This document shows, in pieces, positions 1-62,111 of a stretch of 64,000 nucleotides of DNA. Origin of the DNA: Cantharellus purpuraceus (taxonomy: Eukaryota; Basidiomycota; Agaricomycetes; Cantharellales; Hydnaceae); the NCBI GenBank assembly GCA_025174535.1, contig JALBUN010000049.1, forward strand, positions 1,302,001-1,366,000, read 5' to 3'. Position numbers and translations under genes: made by a program. The notes beneath the pieces are model-generated. The model searched no databases and had not been told where the DNA came from. It saw only the letters and a program-made list of their open reading frames with translations. Every line of letters begins with the position of its first letter. Position 1 is the first letter of the stretch.

Positions 1-466
1 AGATTGTCTGTCGATAGTCCTGCCATTAGTGCTCTTGTTTAAGTTACTAGTGTGTACTGCCTTTGCAGAGCATTAGAATCTTGAACTTGTGTGAAGCAGT
101 TGCTAGACTACTTCACACATCGCTGTTACCCGCTTCAGAGTGTCACTGGTTGGACGGTCAGATTCATCCACCTACTTCCTCTAGCCTCTAAGTGCATTCC
201 CCTCTTTTTGGAATATCTGGACCCCTAAGCGTCCGTGAACTCTAGACTCTGGAAGTCTTATTCATTCCCTACTGCTAAGAAATGTATTACCTTCCTGCGT
301 ATCGTCTGCATTGACCATTACAACGGATTGTAACCAAAGTACAAACGTTAAATCGTTTCTGGAGTTGTGCTGCAGTAGGATTTGATATTCTTCTCAGCTG
401 TTCATTCACGGAATTGTGGTGATTTAGAGTTTGCCCTAACACCATAATTTTGCGGGTTCCAAAACA
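1..466 (+). repeat. LTR-like repeat, right part, cut by window edge
   Basis: The stretch ends in TTCCAAAACA and matches a reverse-complement copy at 57837-58301 and a truncated direct copy at 59937-60138. Three copies sharing one outer edge, with TG..CA type ends in the opposite-strand copy, suggest a long terminal repeat. It lies just upstream of the gag-like frame starting near 536, so it could be the end of a 5' LTR. This copy keeps many CpG sites that read TpG or CpA in the 57.8-kb copy, so it seems the least decayed. The LTR start lies outside the window. No primer binding site was recognised after it. Confidence 0.65.
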
Positions 467-535
467 GCGACTTATATGCGACATTGAAGATGACGTCACA
501 ACACCTTATCATGAAGACTATGATAAGAGGATAAC

Positions 536-1615
536 TTGGACCTGTTTGCACAGGTCCAAGAACTCAAAGGACTTCTTGACAATGAGAAGTCCAAAGTAAC
601 TCATCTCAGAGACAAGTTAAAAACATTGAAGGAGGCTGCTAATAGAGCACCTCCTACATTCAAGACCAAGCTCACAATGGTGCACTTGGCCCCAATAGCA
701 TCACTATCACATGCTATGGCAGGCAAATCATTGTCTGCCATGATGCCGTCACAGCCCATGGCTTCATCATCACGGGAAATGATCGATCTCACCAAAGAGG
801 AGGACAATTGCCCAAGCAAATTGCCTTGGATCGATCCTCGAGGGTTTGAGGGTCAAGATTGGGATGACACTGACCCAATCTGGGAGGGATACAACCACAA
901 TCGTGGCCTCCTCCTGGCTAGCATCCCCAAGGGTGCTAAGCAATCAGGCAAACTCAAAGAGTTTTCCCTATCAGAAATTGAAGCTGAGATTGATCAGCTT
1001 TGAAAGGAATATATGGCTGGTGATGCCAGCCATACCTTAAAAGATCTAGCATTGAAGATGCTGGAGGAAGCCCAGCATACAAATTATTGCAAACAATGGG
1101 ACGATTTTGGGCATGCTCTCAAGCATGCCAATGTGGGGAAATCATTCCCCAAATGGGCACCATGGTTCATGACTGTGGCTGACCCCCCCAGAGCAGTCAC
1201 TGGCCACCTGCCATGACCTCTGGGCAAGTCCACCCCTATCAGGGCAGACTGGTTTGACATCTGTGATATGGACACTCCAGAGTTCATATCACTCCATAAA
1301 AAGGCATTGGCCATGCCGTTCATGGAATGGACTGTACCGATGCACAGAGTCATCAAGAGAATGACTCTACTGGCTCACACTGATAACACGAGTCCTATTG
1401 TCACTCTACTGACCACACCAGTAGACACACTTGCCCTCATACAAGGGTGGCAAGTAAACCCTAATGGGGTCCCCCCAGCCATCTGACAGGAGTCAGATGG
1501 TACTATGAACTTGTCCAATGTGGACATCTGGATGTGGCTACAAAAGGCCACTCCCAAGAAGGGTTCTTCTGTATTTAAGAAGAACCTCTGGACTATGTTC
1601 CAGAATCCTGGCCAT
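536..1615 (+). pseudogene. Broken gag-like retroelement frame, hairpin-tiled
   Basis: One reading frame runs about 360 codons and is interrupted only by three TGA codons (1001-1003, 1214-1216, 1484-1486); the flanking segments stay in the same phase, so this is one decayed gene rather than several small ones. No ATG opens it; the open part begins at a TTG. The N-terminal 35 residues look like a coiled coil (LKGLLDNEKSKVTHLRDKLK), followed by a Ser/Met-rich part and an acidic stretch with WDDTDPIWEGY. I recognise no Pfam-type domain. Position after an LTR end suggests a gag-like or accessory protein. The DNA is filled with short perfect inverted repeats (see findings). Each stop could be a former CGA. 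Confidence 0.5.
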
Positions 1616-2246
1616 TGGAAACTACTGGAAGGTTGTGGAAGGTGGAAGAAAGGGATAGAATATTCCAAGCCAATCACAGGTTCTGATCACTGGACTAACA
1701 CTGATCAGGAGCTGAATAATGGTTCTGGAATGTTCTATCTAATAATAGAAGGAAACAGCTAGAATGTTATGAAAAGGGGTAGAACAATCACCTGATCTGA
1801 TCCCTGAACTAGACACTGATCAGGCAAAAAGAAGGGTGTCCACCCTGTTTTCTACACTGGTTTGCACAGCCATGGATAGCCACATCTCAGGTGATGATCT
1901 CCACAGAAAATAGTGCCCTGAGAGACTGTGGTTGTCAAGTTACACAATATTTATTGATCAGAGACATCTGAGCTTGAATTCAGGCCAAATGCCTGGTCCA
2001 AAGGTGGAGAGCCGGCTGTGTGAAGGTTTGTGGGCACCTATGGGTCCACAACTGTAGCACAGCAGAAATAAATCATTCTGGGCTGAGTTCTGCATGAAAT
2101 ATTCCCAAAAAAATATGGAAAAATAGAGAATATTTGAGTAAGTCCATTCCAAGTACAAGCACCAAATATATGCTGATATTTAGGAATGGAAAAGCAAAGT
2201 ATAGCACATTGGTGCTGCATAAATAAAAAGGTGGTTCCCATACAGG
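1612..2246 (+). repeat. Dispersed repeat D, copy 1
   Basis: About 640 bp match 58594-59272 in the same orientation, with small gaps and many CpG/TpG type differences. It overlaps the end of the decayed gag-like frame and includes short open segments on the minus strand that are the same in both copies but show no known domain. Probably internal or 3' sequence of the same retroelement family. Confidence 0.75.
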
Positions 2247-2254
2247 TGTTGAGG

Positions 2255-2658
2255 TGCATCATGGGGGTCAGAATGGACTTGGCTTCAGCTTATGTGCTGC
2301 ACCCCCACTAATACCTGTGTCTGAGATTTCAGAGACAGAGTATGACTTAGATAGTTTGGATCAGACTTAGGAGCTAGATGTGATTTGATATTTGAACTGG
2401 GGGATGAAGTCCCCAGTAGTACAACTTAAATACATATTCAAAATCTAATAATAATTACTCTGGTGATGGATCTCTGAGGCCAACAGCCTTACATGAGTAT
2501 GTCCAAGTCTGATGGGGGCAGATGTCCAGTTCCTATGGTGATGCTGATGCATCAGTGGAACCAGGGATGGATGGGTGGAGTTGCAATGATAATTGGGCAG
2601 ACTATGGGAGATGTATGGTTTCCTAATGGAGTATAGATTTCATGCACACAAGGATCTG
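2255..2658 (+). repeat. Truncated copy of the TGTTACGCAC-type LTR
   Basis: Matches the middle of the LTR family seen complete at 56924-57451 and, reversed, at 50273-50811. Both ends are missing here: the first 70 bp or so and the terminal part ending in CATAACA. It is joined directly to repeat D. Confidence 0.7.
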
Positions 2659-3176
2659 GGGGACCTGAGACAATGCTGGCTGGCTAAATAGGAGAGCACC
2701 TTCATGGAGTGTGCTGAAATGGGCAACAACATTGGCTTGTCCAAGATCTGGATGATTGTCCCTAAATCTGAAAACTGTGAGCCAGTCATGGAGAGTCAAT
2801 TTTTCCCACCCCACTTTCTATACAGGTTTGGATGATGTGGCTGGGTCATTATTGTTGGCCTTGTTGTGAGGTTTACATGCATATGGCTGAGGTTTGTCAC
2901 AGCTTCTAATCCATGGCAAGGGGTTCTCATGAATCTCATACTGCATAAGTAACCCCTGACCCTATCCATTATCTGATATGCAAATTTGTGGGCACTTATC
3001 TGCTGCCCAACTTGGGCGGTGGCCAACTCCAATGCATTATTGAGTTTTATTCACCATGAGTGCATGCATTATGAGATAGTGTGCTGTACCCCCTTTCTTG
3101 TATACATCAGAATATTGTATAACAGCATCATTCCAAACAAGCATCTTGGTAGCTCCACTTCTCCCCCTTGAGCCCC
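2659..3176. other. Degenerate repeat sequence, no gene
   Basis: AT-rich, CpG-poor sequence between transposon fragments. Only short open frames without recognisable domains are present. It is most likely decayed retroelement sequence. Confidence 0.5.
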
Positions 3177-3356
3177 ATTGATGAGCAAGAGTGGCTCATC
3201 GATGAAATCATTGCTCATCGATGGATAAGTGATAAAGAACTTGAATTTCAAGTTCTATGGACATTGGGAGATGTCACCTGAGAACCTTACATGTTGTGTA
3301 AGGACCTAGAAGCTCTAGATGATTATTTAGAACTTCAAGGGGTGACTCAAGCATGA
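3177..3356 (+). pseudogene. Ty3/gypsy chromodomain remnant
   Basis: Reading the plus strand from 3177 gives a chromodomain as found at the C-terminus of integrases of fungal chromoviruses: residues DEQEWLIDEIIAHRW, then LEFQVLWTLGDVT, then EPY..CKDLEALDDYLEL. In the family these domains bind methylated histone H3 and steer integration. The Trp normally before EP is a TGA stop (3279-3281) and a second stop follows at 3354-3356. The matching integrase core-proximal part lies downstream on the other strand (3400-3825), so the two halves of one gene are in opposite orientation. Confidence 0.75.
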
Positions 3357-3399
3357 GAACTACCTCATAGATGGTAGTTCTCAGAGAGATGGAGCCCTA

Positions 3400-3825
3400 A
3401 AGATTCGTTCCCAAAGTTGTAAAATGACTTTGCTTCCTGTTTTGGGAATCTCATCTCATCATTTGGCACATACAGTTGAATGAGACTGACATGGAATGTA
3501 TGTGCCTATTAGTCAGTTCTGGTGGCAGTTCCAGTGTCACTGTCAAAGCTTTATTATGAGCTTCGATTACTTTATAGGGCCTGATATACTTGGGCACTAG
3601 TTTGCTGGTTCTACCCTTAGGTAGAGTGAAGTTTTTTGTTGAGAGGTAGACTTTGTCACCTCTCTGGAAGGTTGAACCTTCCTGATGTTCTTATTGGCAT
3701 GAAACATCTGAATGATGCAACTTTCTATAATCACATTGTGCACTGCTAGCAGGTTTGTTTGAGCCTGCTGTGCAAATTGTTTGAGCCTGCTGTGCAAATT
3801 GTTTGAGCCTGCTGTGCAAAACTCT
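3400..3825 (-). pseudogene. Ty3/gypsy integrase C-terminal remnant
   Basis: On the minus strand the translation reads NLLAVHNVIIESCIIQMFHAN, then GDKVYLSTKNFTLPKGR and KLVPKYIRPYKVIEAHNKA, the SH3-like GPF/Y-type module after the integrase core of Ty3/gypsy polyproteins. One frameshift near 3470-3500 separates it from a downstream FPKQEAKSFYNFG segment. A 22-bp unit is repeated three times at 3757-3820 at its upstream end. The chromodomain that should follow is on the plus strand at 3177-3356. The element is dead. Confidence 0.75.
3757..3820. repeat. 22-bp unit, three tandem copies
   Basis: Unit begins GTTTGAGCCTGCTGTGCAAA and is repeated perfectly at 3757-3778 and 3779-3800, with a nearly full third copy from 3801. 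It falls in the integrase remnant, where the encoded residues read QFAQQAQT-like, and looks like a slippage expansion. Confidence 0.85.
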
Positions 3826-4296
3826 AACCTGGTACGACACCAATGATTCATATGGTTTTACTTCCAAAAACCTTACTGGGAGCAGGGTATTGCTATATGC
3901 GGTTAGTTCTAGTGAAAGAGTACAAGGACTTAGGTTGGTACCCGATACTAGTGCTGGATATAAACTGATGAATGACTCTCTTATGAACAATGGATTAGAA
4001 TGCCAGTTTGTAAAGGTTTAGAATAAGCGTTTCTAGACGTTTTTAAAAATCTTATAACACATTACTCTCTTTCAAGTTCTTTTTCTATATCATCCACAAA
4101 CTTCTTAAATGCTTCAAAACATTGTAATATCTTCTTCCTATTTTCTACTGGTTTCATACTATCACTAGATCTCCTGGGGATAGTGAAGTTGCCACGGTGC
4201 ACATTAGTGGCTGCCGTGTACTGCGAATATATCTATTTGTGGTAGTATCCAAGTATGGGCTGGTCCTAATAAACTCGTATACTTCCTTATGCAACA
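3826..4296. other. Boundary zone between transposon and gene island
   Basis: The transposon similarity ends about 3825. An open frame on the plus strand covers 3803-4021 (72 codons, first ATG inside the transposon edge) and has no recognisable domain. The rest up to the P450 stop codon shows nothing else. Confidence 0.4.
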
Positions 4297-7030: not shown

Positions 7031-8776
7031 TTATTCCTCGTCAATTTCAGAGTCGTCTGACTCGTCAATATCCATCTCACTGGCATCCTCATAGTCTTCA
7101 TCGTCATCGTCAGAAAACCCTCCCATTGTGAAGTAGGGTAATCCACCGATCGTGATCTCATCTTCATCCTCTTCTGTTGCCCATTCTGACCCTGAATCAT
7201 CCATGTCGTCGTCGGTGCCGATATCAGAAGGCTCGATGAGTTCCACAGTTGCATTCTCCCTTAACCACTTCATGGGTTTCCCTTCCCAACTCCCGGTCTC
7301 TTTATCAATGTGGAGTGTTGCGATTGGACACCCAGCGTCTCGACGCTTTTCGACGAGTTCCTTGAGGTCGTATAGCGATGCACAGACACACATGAGACAC
7401 TCCAGTTTTGGACATAGAACTTCATTCTCTGGACCTCTGGGCCAAAGATAATCAAGCCATGAAGAGGGTATCCGGTGAGAAAAATACAATGCTAGGTGTG
7501 TTAACTTGGAGGATGCACGTAAAAGGTCTTCAAACGTGATTTCGTCCATTTCGACATACGCGAGTTTGAGTGCAGTGAGAGCTGGAAAGAGAGCCGGGGG
7601 GCCTATTATTCGACGAAAGAACGCCGGGTCATAGTTAGTGATCATGTCCGTCAGAGACAGAGACTGCAGGTTAGGAGTTTCAAGTAAGGGGATAAGAGCT
7701 GTCGCGTAATCAGAAGGAATTTCTGATATATGTAGATCTTCCAGCCGCTCCATCTGTAGAGGAGCGTAGAGAGAAGATTCAGAGATGTCGCTGGATATTA
7801 AAGGTGCAGAGCCGCGAAGGTCTAGAGTCTGAAGCGTAGGTGATGCATCTATGATTGCCCTGAATTCTTCATATGTTGGTCTGACATCCCGCGTATGATA
7901 TCCAAGATGTAAATTCGCCAAACCCGCAAAATTGCACTTTTCCCATGCGACATGGGCTCCTTCTAAAGAAACGCCCTCGAGTTTCGGCATTATGCCGCCG
8001 AATAAAGTGAGAGGTTCCCGTAGAGAATGAGGTTCGAAGGGTCCATCCTCGTTAAAGTCATTCTCGTCGTCTACGTCGCTGAGCTCCAGCTCTTCGAGTT
8101 GCGGCGCAGGTTTATTCAAGTGCTGCATGACCAGGTACAAAGACTGAAACCCACGAAGTCGAACCGTTAAACGTTTAAAACGATCTATGTGTGGGACAAG
8201 GATTTCCATCAGGATGCGGATGGGATCAGGGTCTACTGCGAGGTAGCTATTGTCGCAGTGTATAAAAATGTCAAGCCCTGAACTACCGGAGCGTTGCACG
8301 CACGCTCGTACGAAGTCCAGTCGAGGGGGGTCAAGATCAAGGATATGAATCTGTGACCATAGAGTAGGCGTATGGATTGCCACTTCACGGAACGTTCGGC
8401 ACACATGAGAAACCAGGACGTTGAATGCAGGATGTTCTTCATGTCCGTTACCGTCATCGTCATCATCTTCGGCAGATAGCTGAGTTTCTTCACTCCTGAC
8501 TCCTAGCTCAAAGATGTATGCAAGGATTTCATTCGGTAGAGACCACACGGCCGCTATTCGCGACTCTAGAGCGGCACGCTGGTTGCGAAGCAATTCCATT
8601 CTTGTTCGAATTTCACTGAGCTCATCTGAGAGCCTAGACTCTATGGCCTCCAATTGTGATATACTCTTATCCAGATTCGCAATTTGACCAGAGACGGCAT
8701 TGCCTAGCGGGTAATAAGTTTGAAAGATTCCTCAGCGACATCTACAATCAGACTTACGGGCTTTTGGCTCTAACAT
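7031..8776 (-). CDS. F-box protein with coiled coil and acidic tail, 563 aa
   Basis: Two exons: 8776-8758 (ATG, MLEPKA) and 8703-7031, joined across a GTAAGT..CTAG intron; total 1692 nt in frame. The long frame alone lacks an ATG at its start, which is why the short first exon is needed. Residues about 8-50 form a coiled coil (LDKSISQLEAIESRL, ELLRNQRAALESRI). The F-box follows (WSLPNEILAYIFELG ... LVSHVCRTFREVAIHTPTLW). The middle has leucine-rich, LRR-like repeats (LEELELSDV, LQTLDLRGS, LQSLSLTDM, LTALKLAYV). The last 80 residues are very acidic (DDDDEDYEDASEMDIDESDDS). This architecture is expanded in Agaricomycetes and is thought to supply SCF ubiquitin ligase adaptors; the target is unknown. 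Confidence 0.9.
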
Positions 8777-33623: not shown

Positions 33624-35679
33624 ATGTCCAGCCAACTTCTTGACACGGCTTCGAAACATCGCTGGTCTCTCTCTGGTCTAGCAGACCAGGCGTGGAACAG
33701 TGCTTGCGAGCGAGTTATAAGCACGGGATGGAAGCCCCTTGCACGGGTTGCGGAGGCTGGCGTTGTAGCGTGAGTATCGTGTCCTAAACCTTTGAAGTCA
33801 AGAACAATTATCATGCGTTTGAGCAGGTTGATGCAAAACATCACACGTGGTCACCTTAAAGTCCTTACTTATTCTCACATCTACAATTTTCCTGCGCTAT
33901 CCAGATCCCCAGAGGACAACGAGTTTCCACACCTAAAAGCGGAGCTTCGCGTTACAAACGATGTATTTTGGATCAGACTGTTTACAATGAGTGACCTCGG
34001 CTTTGCTGAGGCGTACATGTATGGAGATGTTGAGTGTGATGACTTGGTTTCTGTTTTCGAAGTGCGTGCAGTGGTTCTATGTCTCAAGCGCGGTCAATGA
34101 AAGGCTGTCTCTCTGTATAGATGTTTGTGCATAACCGGGAAAACCTTTCCAGTCTCACCTCAAGTATATCCTACTTGTTCACGCTCCCCCAAGCCCTTAC
34201 CAGCTCTCGCTTTTTGAACACCATCTCAAATTCACGCTCCAACATTTCTGCGCACTACGATATATCCAACGATATGTTTTCAGGTGCAGTGTTTTCGAGC
34301 AGCGTGTTCCTCTCACACCCATTCGGCACCCACAGGGTTTTTGTCTGAGGATATGACCTACTCGTGCGCCATATTCGAAGACCTCGACGGAGACCTGAAA
34401 AACGGTATCCAGGACCGCGGTTCCTGGTCCGGAGGCGAGGGCCTTGAACGTATCGACACCAAACGGAACGCCTCCAGTATGCCGTCCCTTCTGCCCCCGC
34501 CTAGCTACGACGACACCTTATACCACGCCCAACTGCGCAAGCTGCACCATATCATTAGAAAGGCGGACATTCGTCCCGGGCATCGGGTGCTTGAGGTCGG
34601 CTCGGGATGGGGGAGTCTGGCGATCGAGGCGGTGCGGCTGACCGGGTGTACAGTGGATACGATTACGCTATCAGTGCATCAGCAGGCGCTGGCGCAGCAG
34701 CGCATCCGCGAGGCGGGCCTCGGGGACAAGATCACGGTGCATTTGATGGATTATCGGCATATGCCCGAGGCATGGGCGGGGGTGTTTGATAGGTTTGTGA
34801 GCGTGGAGATGATAGAGGCGGTGGGGAGGGAGTTTTTGGATACGTATTGGGGTGTGGTGGATTGGGCGTTGAAGCGGAAGGGAGGTGTGGGTGTTGTGCA
34901 GGTGATCACGATCCCCGAACCTCGTGAGTCTGAGTGGGCTATTTCATGCATATTTCTGTTGATATGGTGAGACGTGTGAAGGGTTTGACCGCTATATACG
35001 GGAGATTGACTTTATTCGCAAATGGGTACGTCCAGGAGCATTTTCATATGAAGGGCATATTTTTGATTCTTTCTACTTGGCAGAGTATGTGTTCACTACA
35101 TCTTTCACAAGTTAATAGTTGCTTAGCCTCGACTGCCAGTTTTCCCTGGTGGCTTTCTTCCAACACTAACATTACTCCTAAGCACTCTCCAAGCAGGCTC
35201 GCATGGGCGGTTGATCGTCGATAGTGTGGTAAATATTGGACCACACTATGCACGTACATTGCGGGAATGGCGTCGGAGATTCCTAGAACGCTTCAATACC
35301 GTCATTGTCCCAGCTCTGATGAGGGAGTATCCGGACGTGATGGGCGGGGAGAGGGAGAAGGAGATTGAAGTATTCAAACGCAAGTGGATTTGTGAGTGCT
35401 ACATTACTAAGCTTTTATTATACGATGCTTTAATCACGTGCCGTTGGCTACAGATTATTAGTGAGTTGTATTTGCATCCATTGATGTTGGCTGCTGATTT
35501 CGTCAATGAAGTTGCTATTGTGAGGTTGGATTTACAACACGCACACTGGGAGGTGGGTAGTCATTCTAATAAGTCTACTTTCTACGTGTGCTTGATCTCA
35601 TCCCACATTTTTTCTAGACCATATCGTTACTTTCACAAGGGAAGGAAACACGGCATACGGGTGTAATGTATACAACTAG
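33624..35679 (+). CDS. cfs1: Cyclopropane-fatty-acyl-phospholipid synthase, Cfs1-like
   Basis: ATG at 33624 (MSSQLLDTASKHRWSLSGL). The N-terminal domain contains RVTNDVFWIRLFTMSDLGFA and EAYMYGDVECDDLVSVFE. Then HYDISNDMF is joined over an intron to GFLSEDMTYSCAIF, a hallmark of cyclopropane synthases. The SAM-binding motif is VLEVGSGWGSLAIEA, followed by SVHQQALAQQRI, DRFVSVEMIEAVGREFL, VFPGGFLPTLT and LREWRRRFLERFN. The last exons read YCYCEVGFTTRTLGDHIVTF and end at TAG 35677-35679. The enzyme moves a methyl group from SAM to a double bond in membrane lipid acyl chains. In Coprinopsis a homologue (cfs1) is needed for fruiting initiation. All introns found keep frame; one acceptor near 35127 is uncertain by four residues. 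Confidence 0.92.
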
Positions 35680-37292: not shown

Positions 37293-39234
37293 ATGCCTGT
37301 CTCTGATGCTATTCTAACTCAAATTTTAAGCCGGTTGGAAAATCTGACTGTCCAGCAGCAAACCCTGCAAGCAAAGGTGCGCCATTGGCCAGCTTTAAAA
37401 TGTTGAAAGTTAATATGTTTGCACAGGTGGATACTTTGGCGGCTTCGTCTTCGAGTCCACCATTGCAGCCTGCGACATCTTCTGCTGTTCCGATACCCAT
37501 GGGAGATGGGTCTATCACCAGTCTACCGCCGCTCCGAGCTCCAGTGAATTCCCTACCTACGCAAATGTCTCTTTCACCCCCTACACATACAGCTCTTGTT
37601 TCTTCAGTAGAAACGCCTTTGGACGACGTGGCCAAAGAAAGGGCGCGAGAAAAGGCATTATACCCATCCAGAGTCATTCTTACAAGTGCGTGGTATTGCA
37701 TTTTGACGACTACCCAAGCTAAACCACGTTTTCTAGCATATCCTGACCAGACCGGCATCAGGCCATACCCGCTCAAGTGGGGCGCTGTCGACCCACAGGA
37801 GCGTGGTCCCGTTATACCGTCGCGCCTTCCATCTTCCCTGAAGCAGCGCAACGCGATTGGCGCGCACAGCGGATCATACAGCATATACCGCGCATTAGCA
37901 ATTGCCCTCGGCACACTTTCTCCGACACATAAACCATCGTACGCAATGACAGAGCCGCCCATCCCAATCCCGCCGCAGCCTTCCTGGTCAGATCCCAGCA
38001 GGATTGTCAGTTTTGACCCCTGGGGGCATCTCGCTCCGCAAGTGTTCCGTCGTGAGATTGAGGATTATGGACTGGACATTCGTCCGAGTATCGCCGTGAC
38101 CAAGGCTCATATTAAATTAAGCGAGATTGACGTGTCAGCAAAGAAGGGTGAGATAGTGGTTGATGGCAAGATTGTGCTGAAGAGCAGGCAGGGCGTTAAT
38201 GAAGACGGGACTGAGAGTACCGAGGACCCAGGAGTGGAACTCAATGTTAGCAAGGCGGCCGTAGAGCCCGTTTGGTATCTGCCCGGCGTTGCAGAGCGGT
38301 TTGGCATGTGAGTGGTTCCATGTTCTTGTGAGGCCTCATAACTCATCGAGCAGTTCGGAGCCGTTGCTTCGCCGTGCTCTGTTTGAGGACACGGGTGGGA
38401 TGTATCCCGAGTTGATAACGCGGCCTGACGTCAAGGTTTTCCTGCCTCCCATTGGGAATTTGACCGTCTACATCTGTGCGTCTGACTTTATCTCGCTGTT
38501 TGATACTCACTGATACTCACTAAACCTTTGTAGTCGGTAACCCTGCCTACATGTCTGACGAAACAAAGGAGCTTACGCTCCGTGTGCATGATGAGTGTTC
38601 GTGCAATCTGCCGTCGTAGGCCATATATGCTTATGATTTCGCAGGCAATGGCTCGGACGTCTTCGGGTCTGACATTTGCACGTGCAAGCCATACCTTACC
38701 TTTGCGATAGAAGAGTGCGTACGGGGTGCGCAGCGCGGTGGCGTCGGTGTCGTCGTCTACTTCCGCAAAGAAGGCCGCGCGCTAGGCGAGGTGACCAAGT
38801 GCGCTATCACCTTTTGGTGTTTTTCTCCCCGCTTTCACCTTGAACTTGAGCTGCTTCTGTGTTTTAGATACCTCGTTTACAACTTGCGGAAACGAGGCGG
38901 CGACAGCGCGGACAAGTACTTCCGCTCGACGGAGGTGATCGCGGGCGTTAAAGATATGCGTTTTCAGGCGCTCATGCCGGACGTGCTGCACTGGCTAGGG
39001 ATTAGAAAGATTGACCACATGGTGAGCATGAGCGACATGAAGTACAACGCCATCGTGCAGTCTGGGATTCCGATATTGCACCGTTACGATATTCCCGCAC
39101 ATTTGATACCGCCAGATTCTCGTGTGGAGATTGATGCGAAGATTGCGGCGGGGTATTTCACGTCGGGGAAGAAAATCACTCCGGAGGATTTAGTGAAGAC
39201 AGTTGGGAGGACGTGGGAGGAGACTGAGCATTAG
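37293..39234 (+). CDS. URC1: GTP cyclohydrolase II-like protein, Urc1 of uracil catabolism
   Basis: ATG at 37293 (MPVSDAILTQILSRLENL), stop TAG 39232-39234, several short introns. A Ser/Pro-rich head is followed by the GTP cyclohydrolase N-terminal region (YPDQTGIRPYPLKWGAVDPQ, IGAHSGSYSIYRALAIALG, SFDPWGHLAPQVF). The catalytic GTP cyclohydrolase II part has the zinc site in HDECNGSDVFGSDICTC, the RKEGRALGEVTKYLVYNLRK segment corresponding to QEGRGIG of RibA, and MSDMKYNAIVQSGIPI. This combination is that of fungal Urc1 (uracil-regulated protein A), part of the Urc pathway that degrades uracil, rather than the riboflavin enzyme. A ribitol pathway role cannot be excluded without a tree. Length is about 570 aa, in range. 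Confidence 0.87.
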
Positions 39235-51982: not shown

Positions 51983-52915
51983 ATGGATGATAAACTTGTC
52001 ACTCTAATCCTCAGATCACTCCCCAAGTCGTACTGTGCACTCATTAATGCAATATCACTGTCAGCAAGACATGCTAAGATCAAAATGAAACCTGAGGCCA
52101 TTGTTGGAAGCTTACTTGAGGAGTTCAATAGGCTGAAAATAGAAGAATGTCAATTGAAGGCAACTGAAAGTGCCCTTGCAGCTGCAAAGGGCCATGGGAA
52201 AGGCCATTGCACTGGAGGCAACTCAAAGACCAAGAAGATGGACATTGAATGCTGGAAGTGCAGGAAGACAGGGGATATGAAGGTAGACTGCAACAAGAAG
52301 GGGAAGAAGAAGGAAGATGATGACAAAAAGAAGAACTCTGCCAGCATTGCTACTGAGGGTGATGAATGGGCATTCACAACAATGCTCATCTCCCAGGCAT
52401 TCCCTCAGGAGGAAAATTCATGCAAAGGCTCAGAGGTCAATGTCTATGACTCTGGCACATCTTCCCACATGTCCCCTGACTGACATCACTTCACAAACTT
52501 CAAGGAAACACCACCCTACCCCATAGCTGCTGCAGACAAGGCTATGTTCAATGCAACTGGCATCAGTGATATGCACATTGCCATCCTGAATGATAAAACA
52601 ATGAATTACATAACAGTCAAAGATGTACTCTACTGCAAAGACTTGGCATTCATACTAATATCACTCACCTGATGTGACAAGGCCGGTTTTACAGTGCTGC
52701 TACATGACAAGCACTGCACAATTCATTGCCAAAAAGGGACAACTGTTGGCCAGATACCACTCACAGGAGGCCTATACAAAGTTGAGAACAAACAACCTAC
52801 CAGTTATGTTGCTTATGGAATAGATCCTATAAGCCTGCACGCAACGGTCCTAGCAAACAGACAGTGTGTAACACAGTTGTTCAGCACTCCAAAGATCAAT
52901 CAGGTCAAGGGGTAG
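51983..52915 (+). pseudogene. Ty1/copia gag-protease remnant
   Basis: The first 166 codons contain gag sequence (LVTLILRSLPKSYCALINAI), a zinc knuckle CWKCRKTGDMKVDC whose histidine is replaced by Asp, and a protease-like site VYDSGTSSHMSPD. A TGA follows (after SPD) and the frame continues as FTNFKETPPYPIAAADKAMF, KDVLYCKDLAFILIS, then another TGA before CDKAGFTVLLHDKHCTIHC. Both stops sit where copia proteins usually have Arg, consistent with CGA to TGA. Integrase and reverse transcriptase are missing. The sequence then passes straight into repeat E, a junction also present at 59.8 kb. Confidence 0.85.
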
Positions 52916-53581: not shown

Positions 53582-54193
53582 TCAGCATCCACAACAAATA
53601 CTCCTTATTGTATTAGTGATACGTCTCCATATGGTATCCCGTTCCAAGGGTATTTGGTCCCTTTGCCTGACACAATGTAATCTGAGTTGGATTGAAGTGG
53701 GAGGATAGGTCGGCGATGGTGACTGAAATTCTACCTCACATTCGACTCTTCTATCTGTGTTATGATATAGAGGTGAAATGCCGAGGAATGTATATGGTTC
53801 AATGGAATTGTGAAAGAATATGGGATTGCCAATGGCATAAGAGAGGCATGGTGGGGATCTTGGATGTTGAAAGAGTTTTGGAAGTATTTTGATACATGGA
53901 GGTGGCTTAACATGCCCATGGAGCTCAGTGTATTTTTGATAATCCTCTGTGTCCAGAGACCAGTGTGACATATTATTAGAAGAGATGTTGGAGAGGGGAA
54001 TAGAATTGGAAGCCATGTGAATGATGATGAAAGGATTGGTGTGAATAGAAGGCTGATAATGATCGATGGCGATGAAACATGAGTGACGATCGATGGCTAG
54101 AATTAGAGACTGAGGTAGAGAGGGAGTTGCGGCGCTATTTAAAAGTTTGATATGAAAAGGCACTGGCGGAGTTGGACTGTCAGAGTGGTTCAA
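53582..54193 (-). CDS. Unknown open frame inside repeat block, 203 codons
   Basis: Open on the minus strand with no recognisable domain; the product is Pro/Ser/His-rich (CVRQRDQIPL, HSDSPTPPVPFH). It sits between transposon remnants and could be a transposon-carried or chance frame. Weak support. Confidence 0.25.
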   Translation of the reverse strand: MNHSDSPTPPVPFHIKLLNSAATPSLPQSLILAIDRHSCFIAIDHYQPSIHTNPFIIIHMASNSIPLSNISSNNMSHWSLDTEDYQKYTELHGHVKPPPCIKILPKLFQHPRSPPCLSYAIGNPIFFHNSIEPYTFLGISPLYHNTDRRVECEVEFQSPSPTYPPTSIQLRLHCVRQRDQIPLERDTIWRRITNTIRSICCGC

Positions 54194-54564
54194 TATACAT
54201 CCTCGATGCGTCCTGGCTCGTCACTGACAGCGCCTCCTCAGATTGTCGGTCCAATATTTCAGAGTTTGGAGTATGGAGTTGGATCAGGGATCTGGAGTTC
54301 AACTTGTCAAGAAGCTAGCAACCAAGAAGTTAATGGGGCAAATCTTAGTTGATATACAAACTACTGTAATAGACAGAGAGTAGCCCATATAAGTATGTGG
54401 AGAATTGAATGCTGAAACTAAAACAATAAGGCAATAAGATGGATATGGAGTACAACATGGAAAGGAGTTCAGAGTTTGGACCCAAGTCCGAACTGAAACT
54501 AAACAATATAGAAGGAGGTTTGTTGTAACCCATAAGAAGAAACTACTTATAAAGAGAACAATAA

Positions 54565-54740
54565 TGGAGTTTGGGGTTGATGGAGTTTGGGGTTGATGGA
54601 GTTTGGGGTTGATGGAGTTTGGGGTTGATGGAGTTTGGGGTTGATGGAGTTTGGGGTTGATGGAGTTTGGGGTTGATGGAGTTTGGGGTTGATGGAGTTT
54701 GGGGTTGATGGAGTTTGGGGTTGATGGAGTTTGGGGTTGA
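54565..54740. repeat. Minisatellite, 11 perfect 16-bp units
   Basis: Unit TGGAGTTTGGGGTTGA repeated eleven times without change. Degenerate units follow to about 54800 (TGGAGGTGGAGTTGAT and similar). Since 16 is not a multiple of 3, all three minus-strand frames cycle the same peptide (HQPQTPSTPNSINPKL), giving two long artificial frames. Confidence 0.95.
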
Positions 54741-54899
54741 TGGAGGTGGAGTTGATAGAGATGGAGTTGTTGGGGATGGAGATGAAGGAGATGGAGGTCT
54801 GGAGTTTGGACTTGGTGTTACAGGATGTAACACACATAGCACAACCAATATAACTTGGTTGAGTTCTGTGTTGGTGTGAACTAAGTCCAACCTTACACA

Positions 54900-56815
54900 T
54901 TTTTGAACTTCCATAGAAAGAATCAGTTGATTCTTCCTCTTTATTGAAGTTTTCTAGCCAGTGCTAGAAAACTGGCTGTTGCTGGTGTACAGACATATAC
55001 CAATCCCCCCAGTTGCTCATACAAGTGAGCAACTAGTAGACTAACTTAGTTAGTCTACAGTTAGTCTACTAGAAGCAGAAGAAAAGGAGTCATCATAATG
55101 ATGACTTGAAGCAGAGCAAGTCATGCTGGCAGTGCCCAGGACATCATAAATGATGAACAGCAGTGCATAGCCAGCAGTAGAAGCTCCCATGAAGGGGAGC
55201 TAGACCCTAGAGAAGTTGTAGTGACTTCTTGTAAGGAAGACTCTAGGAGAGAGTCATTGCAGTCACAAGACCACATAGACGATCATACAATAGATTGCCT
55301 GTCAAACAAGAACCCCTCATTGAGTGGTGCTTTGATAAGAAAAGAAAAGAGGGGACAGTTATTAACTGCCTCCAATGTTCCTAAAGGAAAGGAATGTGAT
55401 CATAAGATGAGCACAAGTAGAAGTAGCAATACTTCTACTAGGGCATCACGCAGCATGGAGTGGTGTGAAACCCACTGGTCAATCGCAAGATTGACTGAGC
55501 AACTCATGTGCAATCAGCATGATATGAAGAGCATTAACAAAGCTAGTGCTTAGGCAGCCAAGATGGCAGCCATAGCAGAACATGCTGCCACCAATATAGG
55601 GCAGCAAATCACAGAGCTGGGAATGATTAAAACTGCTCCAAGAGAGCTCTGAGTGATGCAAGTTGCACCGCCAAAGATCAGATTCTTAATGAGAATCTGA
55701 ATCTGGAGAGTCTAGATCTCCCCAGGGTGAGAGGATCCAACCAAATGATTGGTTGGATAGAAGAAATGAGATTCCCCCAATGGAAGGAATCAGAGATACA
55801 GTAATCCCTGTAAGGCAAGGATTACCAATACGGGTTGAGGAGGAAACTCCCCAATCTAGGTCAAAGGAGCTCAATCAAGAGATTGAGCCTGAGGCCTCTC
55901 ACAAACACAGATTAGCCCTCAAACAGAAGGCTAAATATGCAGAACAAGAGCTTGTCAGCTCTTTAGAGAGAAATGGCCCCAACAAGAGCTCAATGTCGCT
56001 GTTGATTTAAACTGACAGTCACCAAATGTGCTGAATAGTTATCAGTGCATATGAGCAGCGGGCCTCTCAGGAGACACCTGCCATGAACAGCAAGGTACCC
56101 AATGGGTACCTCAAGAGGATGCTCCCCATCACAAGGAGCAATCAGCACCATTGACCCTAGAAGGTCAGGGTACCCCCCAGATCAATTGGATACAATTGAT
56201 CCTATCGATGGCATTACTTGCATGGTATGAGTAGCCATAGTTGATAACAAAGATACAGACCCAGAGAAGTCTGTACTTGCCAAAGCTGGCATAAAAGTAT
56301 CACCCCCTGAGCAATACTCAGGAGGTGCAGATCTTGAAGAATTCAAGATCTTTGTAGCAGGGATGCTATGATGGCTGAAGATGAACAATCTTCTCAGGCC
56401 ATCAAGTACAAAGTTTCAACTGTTGTACTTAGGCACTCGCCTTAAAGGTGAGGCCTAGGAATGGTTCTACAGAAATGTAGAACACTACAACAGGGCAGTC
56501 CAAGACTGGACCCTGGAAACTGCAATCCAATGGTTGCAGTGTAGATTCCTACATATGCTGATGCATCATCATGTGTCAAATAAGTTTGACTCTGTAATGC
56601 AGAGTCAAAGGACCATTCATGAATTAATGAATGATCTAGAAAGGTATGCAGACCACATGATAATGCCACTAGACATGTACACATTCAGAAAGAGGTTCAT
56701 GACTGCAATGTGCAAACCTTTGAGACAAGAAGTCCTCAAGAAGGGCTTCAATGCCAAGTTTAGCAGCATTGAGCAGTTATATGAGACTGATCAAATGATA
56801 GAGGAAGTAATGTGA
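54900..56815 (+). pseudogene. Broken Ty3/gypsy gag region, hairpin-tiled
   Basis: The right part (about 56330-56815) is a retrotransposon gag domain: EEFKIFVAGML, stop, WLKMNNLLRPSSTKFQLLYL, GTRLKGEA, stop, EWFYRNVEHYNRAVQDWTLE, then YADHMIMPLDMYTFRKRFM and RQEVLKKGFNAKFSS. Stops are TGA at about 56369 and TAG at about 56457. The left part (54900-56010) holds open segments without known domains (55221-55553, 55753-56010), presumably the gag N-terminus. No zinc knuckle, protease or RT follows; LTR-like sequence begins at 56924. Like the 536-1615 frame, this DNA is packed with short perfect stem-loops (see findings). Confidence 0.65.
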
Positions 56816-56923
56816 TACTATCATGGTATGTGATGTCTGGAGAATGTTCCTAACACATCCCCCATGACTCATAGACCAGTAGTCAATAGAACTAGTATGA
56901 CAAATGCAGGAAGCTGACCCATG

Positions 56924-57451
56924 TGTTACGCACTAGGTCCAATTGAGGGTTGGAGCTTGGGTCGGAGTCAATGGTTGGAGTTGGAGCGGGGATCAGGGTG
57001 CATCATGGGGTCAGAATGGACTTGGCTTCAGCTTATACGCTGTGCCCTCACTAATACCTGTGTCCAAGATTTCAGAGACAGAGTATGACTTAGACAGTTT
57101 GGATCAGACTTAGAAGCTAGGTGTGATTCAATATTCAAACTGGGGAATGAAGTCCCCAGCTGGGCAACTTAAATACATATTTGAAATCTAATAATAATTA
57201 CTCTGGTGATGGGTCTCTGAGGCCAATGGCCTTATGTGAATATGTCCGAGTCCAATGGGGACAGATGTCCAGGTTCCTATGGTGATGCTGATGCATCAAT
57301 TGGAACTGGAGGTGGATGAGTGAGATCAACAGTGACAATTGGACAGACTAAATGGAGATGTGATGGTTTCCAAATGAAGTATAGATTTCATGTGTGTGGG
57401 GATCTGAGTGGATTGGATGGGGATCTAGGTGTTAAGAATATAGTCATAACA
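56924..57451 (+). repeat. Complete LTR of the TGTTACGCAC family
   Basis: Begins TGTTACGCACTAGGTCC and ends GTCATAACA, 528 bp, and matches the solo LTR at 50273-50811. Flanking pentamers (CCATG and GTATC) do not match, so it is part of a rearranged element rather than a clean solo LTR. Confidence 0.8.
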
Positions 57452-57588
57452 GTATCTCTCCATTAAGGCTGAGCCCTTGAGGCCTCATGTCCATGGATTG
57501 AATAGGTGAGATGGTTGGGTGCAGTCAGAGTTATACTGGGTTTGGAGACATATAAAAGGAGGGGCATGTTGAGGTCTTATCCTCAACA

Positions 57589-57836
57589 ATGTTGAACCCT
57601 TTTGCAATTATGAGTGTGGCTGAGCTCAAGCAGTTGCTCCTGGCCCGATGGATGGAAGGAAGAAGAAGAGGAGTGGAGACAGAAGGAGGAGGAGGAGGTG
57701 GAATGGAGATGGAAGGAGGAGGAGGAGGAGGAGGAGGAGTATGTGCCCATAGGGTGTATATGTATAGTTATTATGTAAGCCAGTGGACCCAGTACACATG
57801 TGGGTCCACTTATAGTAGACAGAACTTAGACACTAC
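57589..57836 (+). other. GGA microsatellite and short frame
   Basis: A frame from ATG 57589 encodes ELKQLLLARWMEGRRRGVET followed by Glu/Gly runs from a GGA-rich microsatellite (57662-57740). A 9-bp stem AGTGGACCC/GGGTCCACT lies near 57782-57809. It may be the start of another retroelement gag. Not a supported gene. Confidence 0.35.
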
Positions 57837-58323
57837 TGTTTTGGAACCTGCAAAATTATGGTGTTAGGGCAAACTCTAAATCACCACAATTCCATGAATA
57901 AACAGCTGAGAAGAATATCAAACCCTACTGCAGCACAACTCCAGAAATGATTTAATGTTTGTACTTTGGTTACAATCTGTTGTATTGGTCAATGCAGACT
58001 ATATGCAGAAAAGTAATACATTTCTTAGCAGCAAGAAATGAATAAGACTTCCAGAGTCTAGAGTTCACAGATGCTTAGGGATCCAGATATTCCAAAATGA
58101 AGGGAATGCACTTAGAGGCTAAAGGAAGTAGGTGGATGAATCCGACCGTCCAACCAGTGACACTCTGAAGCAGGTAACAGCAATGTGTGAAGTAGTCTAG
58201 CAACTGCTTCACACAAGTTCAGTTTTTCTAATGCTCTGCAAAGGCAGTACACTAGTAACTTAAACAAGAGCACTAATGGCAGGACTATCAACAGACAATC
58301 TACCCTGTAGATTTGTAGTCACA
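57837..58323 (-). repeat. LTR-like repeat, reverse copy of 1-466
   Basis: Reads TGTTTTGGAACC at the left and TAGTCACA at the right (TG..CA ends). Matches 466-1 reversed. At eight or more sites where 1-466 has CpG this copy has TpG or CpA, so it is an older or more heavily mutated copy. No matching target duplication. Confidence 0.7.
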
Positions 58324-58593
58324 TGAGGCAGATACTACACTCATGCCCAAAGCAGGAATATCACTACTTTGAGTGCAATCAAGTACAGTTACACAATTGT
58401 AAAAGATCCTTGAACTGGTAATCAACAGTTACTGAGATATAGAGGATGACACTGTATGTCACTCTAGTCACACTGGTGTGCAGAAGATGGGTAGAAGTGG
58501 TAGAATATGTTGTTATTTCAGAGGCAGAATGACCTTCTTATATATTGTATTTACAGGGGCTGACTAATGCTTCTGGAATATTCTACCTATTAA

Positions 58594-60657: not shown

Positions 60658-62111
60658 TTAGGCTTTCGTAGTCGCACTACCACCACCGCCTCCCCTCCAC
60701 CACTTTGCAATCTTCCCGCCACCATAACGAATGCTCTTCCCAAAACCGGCGCTGACGACACCTTTGATCGTCTGCACAGTGGCCGGGTATCGTACAATAC
60801 TCTTCATCTCTGATCAAACCAATCAATCGGAAGATTTCTAAAAATAAAATAAAATAAAAAAATAAAAGTTACTCACCCTCAGTCAAAATCTCTCCAAGCC
60901 TTTCGTGTCCTGCTACGGCCCTCCAATATGCGCCCTCATCCGCCTCCTTCCCGGGCATACTCAACTGTGTCGTCCGCACCTCATAATACCGATCAACCCG
61001 CTTCGCCAGTTCCTCTGGCAACTTCCGCAAATGCAATACTCGCGTCTTTGCCTCCGGATCTTGCTCTATCTCTCCCCCGGCAGTCTGCCAGTGCACCCCT
61101 GGCAGGCCCAGCGCTAACTTCCGATACAACTCCCGGAACTGGTCTAATTGTTTCCCCACGATGTTGGCGACCTTGTCTCGATTTTCAGCGGGGAGGGACA
61201 TCCTGGGATCGCCACCGTAACTGATGCCGGCGACGCGTTCAAAAAGCGCACGTTCGGAAAATCGTTCGGGGAGAGTAAGGAGGGCGGTGCGTAAGGCCGA
61301 GGTGAGGTTCACTTGTTGAGTAAGGCGAACGCGAGCGTCATCCTTGATGATGCGAAGTGGCTTGTGCATTCGACCCGCCAGGTATAATGTGCGCCAGGTA
61401 AGGAGGTCGGTACACAGTGTATCCAGGGAGGTTACACCATACTTGATGGTCTGAAAAAGAAATGAGCCAGCAAACATAAAATGTAGGTAAGGTGGCACGT
61501 ACCACGCCATTGACTGTGACATATGGATTGAACCACACACCGGGACCAAGGTCTTGCATGTGTGAGATAAAGTCACTTCCAAAAAGGCGTGCATGGAGTG
61601 CGTAGTGCGAGGGGTTTCGCGCAAGATTTATAGAGTGCCAGTGGCTGGGGTGGCTGACGGCGAACATGAAGTCAAGCATGGGCCGATTGGGGGTCCTCGT
61701 CAGGTATCCATCCTGCTCAAAGACGCCTGAGCCATATGCAAAGGCATACCGAACGGGCGCATCAAATTGAGAGACAATGCTCTCTAACAAATGTCTAGTG
61801 GTGGTAGGCACCGAAAGGAACTGATTTGCGCCAAAATTGTGGGGAAGTTGGGGAAGAGCTTGAAAGCGGGTTGATATGCGGGAATGAGCCTGGTTGCTAG
61901 AGGAATTTGAGGGACGAGGACCAGGTATGAGACGAGAGCGGGATGCACGTGACGACGGTGGAGGGTTCGGCGGCGGCGGCGATGTCGAGGAGTTGCTGGG
62001 AATTGACTCAGTGGAGAGTCTTCTCATGAAGGAAGATGACCATCGAGGATATGATTGTAAAGAGCGACGAGAAAGCGGCATGGACGTCTTCTGCAAGGAG
62101 GCGGCATGCAT
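60658..62111 (-). CDS. TAM41: Mitochondrial CDP-diacylglycerol synthase Tam41
   Basis: ATG at 62111 (MHAASLQKTSMPLSRRSLQS), stop TAA at 60658-60660, two introns. The N-terminus is Arg/Ser-rich as for a mitochondrial presequence, followed by a Pro/Ser linker. The nucleotidyltransferase core reads FAYGSGVFEQDGY, then MLDFMFAVSHPSHWHSINLA, LHARLFGSDFI, VWFNPYVTVNGV, TIKYGVTSLDTLCTDLL and LYLAGRMHKPLRI. These match the Mmp37/Tam41 family, which makes CDP-diacylglycerol from phosphatidic acid in the matrix side of the inner membrane for cardiolipin synthesis. The first Asp of the GSG..D pair is present. The protein ends with a Gly-rich tail (WWRGGGGGSATTKA). An ordinary single-copy gene, isolated between transposon blocks. 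Confidence 0.93.

Follow-up and report, generated by a model that had tools for sequence, protein, structure and literature searches.

A Ty3/gypsy-type LTR retrotransposon family tiled with short perfect hairpins, and their possible origin in template switching

We found that a family of LTR retrotransposons carries one perfect hairpin per approximately 75-80 letters along the whole element, coding parts included, and that in eight of these hairpins the loops differ between copies by reverse complementation. Fragments of the family lie in the window, the stretch of 64,000 nucleotides analysed here (C49:1302001-1366000), which belongs to a genome of 40.15 Mb in 50 contigs, the single genome studied. 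The reading that we favour, and to which we would give not quite an even chance, is that the stems owe both their origin and their perfection to template switching, which also flips the loops, most likely in the course of the family's own reverse transcription.

The hairpin signal of the window peaks at 1-4000 and at approximately 54000-57000, and both peaks hold fragments of this one family (Table 1). The piece at 535-1590 matches at least 40 places in the genome at 86-100% identity (40 of the 189 candidates were scored), and the sample comprised 30 matching places (L001-L030), taken with 1.5 kb on each side, together with eleven 10-kb stretches surrounding some of these places. The order in the C9 copy (L034) is RT-RNase H, integrase, spacer, 3' ORF and LTR, and 535-1590 belongs to the 3' ORF. 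To judge from its domains and ends, the family is a Ty3/gypsy LTR retrotransposon: the RT-RNase H region (L034 5028-5687) matches the Ty3 entries PDB 4ol8 and 7q5b (E 1.8e-25 and 1.2e-24) and the Pfam families RT_RNaseH_2, RT_RNaseH and RVT_1 above cut-off, the integrase was placed downstream of RNase H in L034 by tblastn with other gypsy proteins, and Integrase_H2C2 was found in L038 (E 4.8e-16), with rve below cut-off (E 0.016). The LTR, of approximately 266-277 bp, starts with TG and ends with CA; L032 4429-4694, at the gag end, and C9 9817-10093, at the 3' end, which come from two different copies, are 88% identical and read TG...CA. A gag side, called by position and by eye, is present in L032 and at window 54846-56812. 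The 3' ORF matched no Pfam family above cut-off, and weak matches suggest that it may encode a coiled coil; a stop-free piece of 51 aa (L034 7447-7599), a candidate chromodomain by its likeness to the eye, had no Pfam match. Two scans of viral contigs gave no match. In its genes, and in a Tf2-type SH3 domain found in gypsy elements, the genome looks eukaryotic and fungus-like.

Stops break many of the copies, while L006 retains an open frame of 577 codons. All 30 copies are depleted of CpG in the matched region (observed/expected 0.03-0.34), and the same sites read as mixtures of CG, TG and CA among L001-L030; CpG-targeted decay acts on resident copies, and it erases part of the record. In and around the family fragments of the window lie pieces of other repeats (1-472, 2263-2643, 57007-57522 and 57836-58574); two of these pieces share a short hairpin (actgggg...ccccagt), which is at 2396 in one and at 57140 in the other. 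Directly upstream of the gag-side hairpin region, at 54560-54740, is a tandem repeat with a unit like ggagtttggggttgat, in some ten or more copies by eye.

Table 1. Features of the window, with coordinates in the window.
Feature	Position	Strand	Remarks
3' ORF fragment (after pol), hairpin-tiled Ty3/gypsy	467-1618	+	88% to L034 8112-9267, 91% to L032 8487-9639
Longest stop-free stretch of the 3' ORF (window copy), 155 aa	536-1003	+	no Pfam match above cut-off
Perfect hairpin, arm 11, loop 4	535-560	+	
Perfect hairpin, arm 8, loop 8	569-592	+	
Perfect hairpin, arm 8, loop 10	856-881	+	
Hairpin, arm 6 in window copy, 3-nt loop AAA (TTT in other copies)	950-964	+	alignment columns 417-439
Perfect hairpin, arm 9, loop 5	1012-1034	+	
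Perfect hairpin, arm 8, loop CTCA (TGAG in copy L017 alone)	1110-1129	+	
Perfect hairpin, arm 8, loop 7	1346-1368	+	
Perfect hairpin, arm 9, loop 4	1479-1500	+	
Perfect hairpin, arm 9, loop 7	1562-1586	+	
Family pol end, hairpin-rich	3181-3404	+	90% to L034 7406-7629
Family pol end, inverted	3405-3784	-	84% to L034 7403-7033
F-box/LRR-like protein gene	7034-8653		weak match
Cyclopropane-synthase-like methyltransferase gene	34284-34967		E 3.6e-37
GTP cyclohydrolase N-terminal domain gene	37385-38308		E 8.6e-77
Copia-type gag piece	51983-52480		below cut-off
LTR edge and gag side, another family copy, ~14 stems/kb	54846-56129	+	80-86% to L032 4641-5703, 7000-7071 (three pieces)
Open 118-aa piece, continued hairpin-tiled gag side	56459-56812	+	no Pfam above cut-off; gag by position and eye only
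Family LTR piece	57740-57836	+	92% to L032 4529-4626 and L034 9915-9997
Hairpin in LTR piece, arm 10, loop 9	57782-57810	+	
Tam41 gene	61341-62111		E 6e-35

In order to compare stem density with chance, we counted perfect stems with a loop of 3-12 nt in 535-1590 and in 200 dinucleotide-preserving shuffles of it. All nine arm pairs that the original prediction had quoted from this region are exact. At an arm of at least 5 there are 31 stems, against 10.6 in the shuffles (maximum 20), and the corresponding figures are 17 against 2.8 (maximum 9) at 6, 14 against 0.86 (maximum 3) at 7, eight against 0.22 (maximum 2) at 8 and four against 0.06 (maximum 1) at 9. Shuffles that preserve both the protein and the codon usage gave the same result for arms of at least 7 in all three family frames tried, with six stems against 0.73 (maximum 3) at window 536-1000, 18 against 1.5 (maximum 5) in the 577-codon frame of L006 and 10 against 0.71 (maximum 3) in the RT-RNase H of L034. 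Many copies have stem sites in common, and the 30 copies carry 4.8-14.4 stems/kb (median 10.5), compared with a shuffled mean of 0.68 and maximum of 3.07.

The earlier view of a retroelement coding frame with hairpins is correct as far as it goes, although it understates their extent, as the tiling spans the whole element rather than one frame. Across the window and the eleven 10-kb stretches, we counted 376 stems in the 29.7 kb of family DNA (12.7/kb) and 152 in the 144.3 kb outside it (1.05/kb), in which unmasked family pieces are still included. The density in the C9 copy is 15.8 stems/kb in RT-RNase H, 10.3 on the integrase side, 13.0 in the spacer and 12.8 in the 3' ORF; the gag side at window 54800-56830 has 14.2-14.3, and the LTR five stems in 277 bp, so that the tiling is similar in coding and non-coding sequence, at 10-18 stems/kb. 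In a 5.07-kb zone of L034, we counted 66 stems where shuffles gave 3.1 (maximum 7), an excess of approximately twentyfold; when CpG decay is allowed for, 93 non-overlapping stems take up 1582 of its 5071 bases, compared with 5-16 stems in ten shuffles. Most stems are of 7-12 bp and most loops of 3-10 nt, few exceeding 14, with medians of 8 bp for the arm, 6 for the loop, 23 nt for the total length and 34 nt for the gap between stems. Dense leftovers in L031 and L036, considered as a second hairpin family, proved to be more of the same one. The spacer between pol and the 3' ORF (L036 3980-4180, L034 7650-7850) has similar hairpins, gagctacc...ggtagctc, in a row.

Control sequences behaved differently. 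The window between positions 4001 and 54500 is near chance, with 33 stems against 25.7 in 30 shuffles (maximum 38). Ten other gypsy loci (L042-L051), pooled, have 33 stems (1.04/kb) against 14.9 in 60 shuffles (maximum 26), a mild excess of approximately twofold. Codon shuffles of six control frames, taken from other gypsy families, gave 0.3-0.9 stems where the frames themselves have 0-3; one of the six, in L043, has 12 against 2.9 (maximum 7) at an arm of at least 6. Because the other gypsy loci are also in mild excess, the hairpin family may not be alone in undergoing the process; what is seen in the other loci could be that process in a weaker form, or one that is general to the host.

Loop inversion was seen in the 3' ORF, in the zone aligned on the C9 copy and in the LTR. 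Within the 3' ORF, one loop, on a stem of up to 10 bp, reads AAA in 19 copies and TTT in 10 (of 30), and anchored places across the genome give 42 AAA and 21 TTT; a second reads GGGT in 23 and ACCC in two of the 30, and a third CTCA in 28 and TGAG in one. On the C9 copy, a loop readable in 17 of the 30 is CTT in 15, AAG in one and something else in one, a GAA loop is inverted to TTC in one copy, and in a 5-nt loop the central three letters alone are inverted (ACA/TGT), again in one copy. The first LTR hairpin reads CAA at 68 and TTG at four exact places, and the second ATA at 118 and TAT at 23. Flips occur at arms of 7-9 bp as well. Each of the two LTR hairpins is, in the C9 copy, the exact or near-exact reverse complement of its counterpart in the C10 copy (21 nt at 100% and 23 nt at 96%). 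The states of the first and second LTR loop, which lie approximately 100 bp apart, occur in all four combinations (for example, C1:100168, C9:565817, C10:2041429 and, with one mismatch, C47:236007). Two LTR matches on the same strand, 6.4 kb apart at C45:854862 and C45:861308, both have the rarer TAT; they may be the ends of a single element, with the loop state in common.

Scanning the aligned copies for exact inversions with at least two transversions, we found them centred on a stem in five of five cases in the C9 zone and in one of two in the 3' ORF. An inverted segment at alignment column 293, in one pair of copies, was left uncounted because it lies at a near-palindromic site away from any loop, and an apparent new loop at the RT end of L031 and L038 was rejected as an insertion boundary. 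L011 and L017 carry, in the spacer between pol and the 3' ORF, a loop like that of the neighbouring hairpin, possibly the product of a switch between the two.

The AAA/TTT loop was followed on a tree built without the CpG and loop columns, in which 16 of the 27 inner branches are open. The best tree requires eight changes, compared with 8.5 for shuffled labels; at least four are forced by well-supported branches, and the data reject a single clade (p 1.6e-8). Fifteen control non-CpG variants require 1-7 changes (median 2), and two of the top three control sites (5, 6 and 7 changes) lie at or next to the base of the AAA/TTT hairpin; recombination between copies could add homoplasy to the tree. 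Mirror-image mutations at one pair of the AAA/TTT stem recur, with five and four changes, a pattern to be expected if the hairpin flips as a whole. No copy has both mutations, which indicates that the mismatch is not being corrected, and the mismatched pair at columns 420/436 stands uncorrected in 10 of the 30 copies. In the second LTR hairpin, an arm reading GTG occurs in none of the 23 TAT-type hairpins and in 22 of the 52 ATA-type hairpins read letter by letter (of 118), with a p of 7e-5 that is too small in so far as the TAT copies may share one ancestor; its absence from the TAT type is suggestive, and fits a joint flip of the loop and perfection of the arm.

The stems themselves are mostly all-or-none perfect. 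Among the C9 stems with 9 or more pairs, 25 are perfect, two have one internal mismatch, G-U in both and A-C in neither, and three have a one-nucleotide bulge. A census of 29 stem sites (226 pairs) in the 30 copies, the sites being defined from those copies themselves and the copies not being independent of one another, gave 4900 Watson-Crick, 58 G-U, 118 A-C and 32 other pairs away from CpG, and 860, 336, 307 and 7, respectively, for pairs touching CpG sites; over six zones, which are related copies, one-mismatch stems number 25 G-U and 22 A-C. On these counts, sense-strand wobble has no clear advantage over its mirror image, and there is no clear preference for G-U. Perfect arms with few mismatches or bulges, and recurrent inversion of the loop or spacer, are features of quasi-palindrome template switching, and both were found here; the compensatory changes and G-U tolerance of a selected RNA structure were not clearly seen in the stems. 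The codon phases of 43 stems (13/13/17) show no preference for a frame, an earlier hint from 12 of 23 stems in one class having disappeared in the larger set. Arm residues score 1.96 and 1.79 (BLOSUM) against other gypsy families, compared with 1.72 outside the arms, and, being as well conserved as the residues outside, indicate that the proteins have been kept.

In resident copies, 135 of 244 CpG-decayed pairs are matched, against 122 expected (97 of 2000 permutations were as high), and CpG decay is nearly independent between the two arms. The double changes look, by eye and in the four commonest arm pairs per stem, to be of CpG type, so that arm conversion was not seen. Nor did clusters of at least three transversions in the aligned copies of the C9 zone reveal a new stem site besides the loop flips, and no event creating a stem was seen among the copies.

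The cited portions of PMC8604942 (yeast genes) and PMC8794818 (RNA genes) attribute recurrent spacer inversion at perfect inverted repeats to template switching, and that this process acts on the hairpins of the family is therefore well supported. The same portions of PMC8604942 describe flips in ordinary yeast genes too, so the flips speak for switching at work rather than for the creation of stems or for a reverse transcription step. That switching also created the stems is suggested by their perfection, their blindness to frame and the strength of the effect in the family. The contrast of an approximately twentyfold with a twofold excess, together with CpG pairs that are hardly re-matched, points to reverse transcription, and, because the effect is far stronger here than in other gypsy families, to that of the family itself as the most likely step. 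At a quasi-palindrome, the growing strand would copy the opposite arm or the opposite strand and then return; short-range switching of this kind would create stems, keep them perfect and flip their loops. The step would be the family's own reverse transcription, with selection on the proteins removing events that break them, and resident copies would then decay, for the most part through CpG mutation and with almost no dependence of one arm on the other. Of the three causes put forward in the original prediction, the templated quasi-palindrome process is the one that gains, from the perfect Watson-Crick stems, the reverse-complement loops and the recurrent flips, while selection on RNA structure is retained as a rival.

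According to that rival, the genome has been selected to fold on itself, the hairpins aiding packaging or protecting the RNA or the single-stranded cDNA against nucleases, RNAi or long-range pairing, and the flips are a side effect of the perfect inverted repeats. A 901-nt family stretch has a predicted fold of -392.9 kcal/mol (z -17.6), and its reverse complement one of -394.7 (z -10.6), compared with z -2.6 for one control gypsy stretch (20 shuffles in each case). Stems hardly ever overlap, with one overlapping neighbour pair against 16.5 at random placement (minimum 5 of 500), although the same is expected if later switches overwrite earlier stems. Shared non-CpG variants occur in 13 of 372 stem columns and 38 of 523 others (p 0.019), approximately half as frequently, which hints at purifying selection on pairing; rare variants number 99 in stem columns and 147 in the others. 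The conservation of arm residues and the like tiling of coding and non-coding parts also agree with selection for folding. In contrast, G-U is not clearly above A-C and mismatched or bulged stems are rare, unlike in ordinary selected RNA structure; selection would need to work on both strands, and the lack of a clear G-U preference argues against selection of the ordinary kind acting solely on the sense RNA. In view of the extreme fold and of the shared variants being rarer in stems, we consider selection on RNA structure a serious but rather doubtful candidate; switching and selection for folding may also act together.

That host DNA replication makes and flips the hairpins at resident copies, with no part for reverse transcription, seems to us improbable. 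In the cited part of PMC8604942, the homogenisation of arms and the recurrent spacer flips of yeast genes are put down to chromosomal replication, and the mild excess at other gypsy loci would fit such a process. However, twofold is small beside the approximately twentyfold of the family, the window between 4001 and 54500 is close to its shuffles, and resident copies show hardly any re-matching of their arms after CpG decay.

We regard it as very unlikely that the hairpins are small-RNA precursors cut by Dicer-like enzymes, the third of the causes originally suggested. Compared with the substrates known for Dicer, stems of 7-12 bp are short, and so are the median arm and total length found here, and the finding that L034 and L031 matched no Rfam family is neutral on this point. 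Chance, composition or coding bias has next to no probability left, being refuted by the dinucleotide shuffles, the codon shuffles and the 30 copies.

The family raises the old question of whether a mutation process alone can build genome-wide RNA structure or whether such structure is always selected; it looks like an extreme case of that question. A further reading, attractive but speculative and in our judgement less probable than its negation, is that a reverse transcription prone to strand switching wrote the hairpins genome-wide and so gave rise to a self-folding RNA and cDNA that still code for protein and are maybe shielded from RNAi or other host surveillance; a mutation bias would thereby have become genome-wide structure. 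If selection is the cause, the family has a strikingly structured protein-coding retroelement genome and offers a lead on escape from silencing. The material at hand comprises at least 40 places that match one piece, LTR matches that number well over a hundred and the other gypsy elements as controls, and with so many copies, such controls and loops that record strand switches, the rates, the strand and the host or reverse-transcriptase origin of the switches are measurable.

Among the matches listed from the open-licence PMC literature there was no description of a hairpin-tiled retrotransposon. The family resembles Ty3/gypsy elements in its RT-RNase H of Ty3 type, the zinc-binding domain of its integrase and its TG...CA LTR, and differs from them in having an extra 3' ORF of no known family and in the hairpin tiling. 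Some RNA viruses have ordered RNA structure on a genome scale, with folding energies far below those of shuffled sequence, consisting mostly of imperfect helices with G-U pairs. The predicted folding of the family is likewise far below shuffled, but its stems are short, perfect and Watson-Crick, with loops that flip.

For yeast genes, the cited portions of Abraham and Hazkani-Covo 2021 (PMC8604942) describe template switching between inverted repeats with inversion of the spacer. As in our family, spacers of 2-5 bp invert, and do so recurrently, for example AA/TT in SPO75; however, the yeast cases are scattered single genes, with spacer inversions only where arms exceed 9 bp, whereas the family is saturated and flips at 7-9 bp too. 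In RNA genes, a template switch makes or perfects a stem in one event, and loop inversion is its fingerprint (PNAS 2022, PMC8794818); that system consists of rRNA and microRNA genes rather than a retroelement, and its text has no word starting with 'reverse transcri'. A further likeness, in coding sequence, is to the palindromes of nematomorph mitochondrial genes, which, in the cited parts of Mikhailov et al. 2019 (PMC6649704), are many perfect inverted repeats in coding frames with conserved proteins; their all-or-none perfection led the authors to suggest conversion, and template switching is proposed as one possible maker or maintainer. The nematomorph repeats, as described there, show a favoured codon phase, which those of the family do not, and they reach 284 bp in animal mitochondrial DNA, whereas the family has short stems, at 10-18 per kb, throughout a nuclear LTR retrotransposon, its non-coding parts included.
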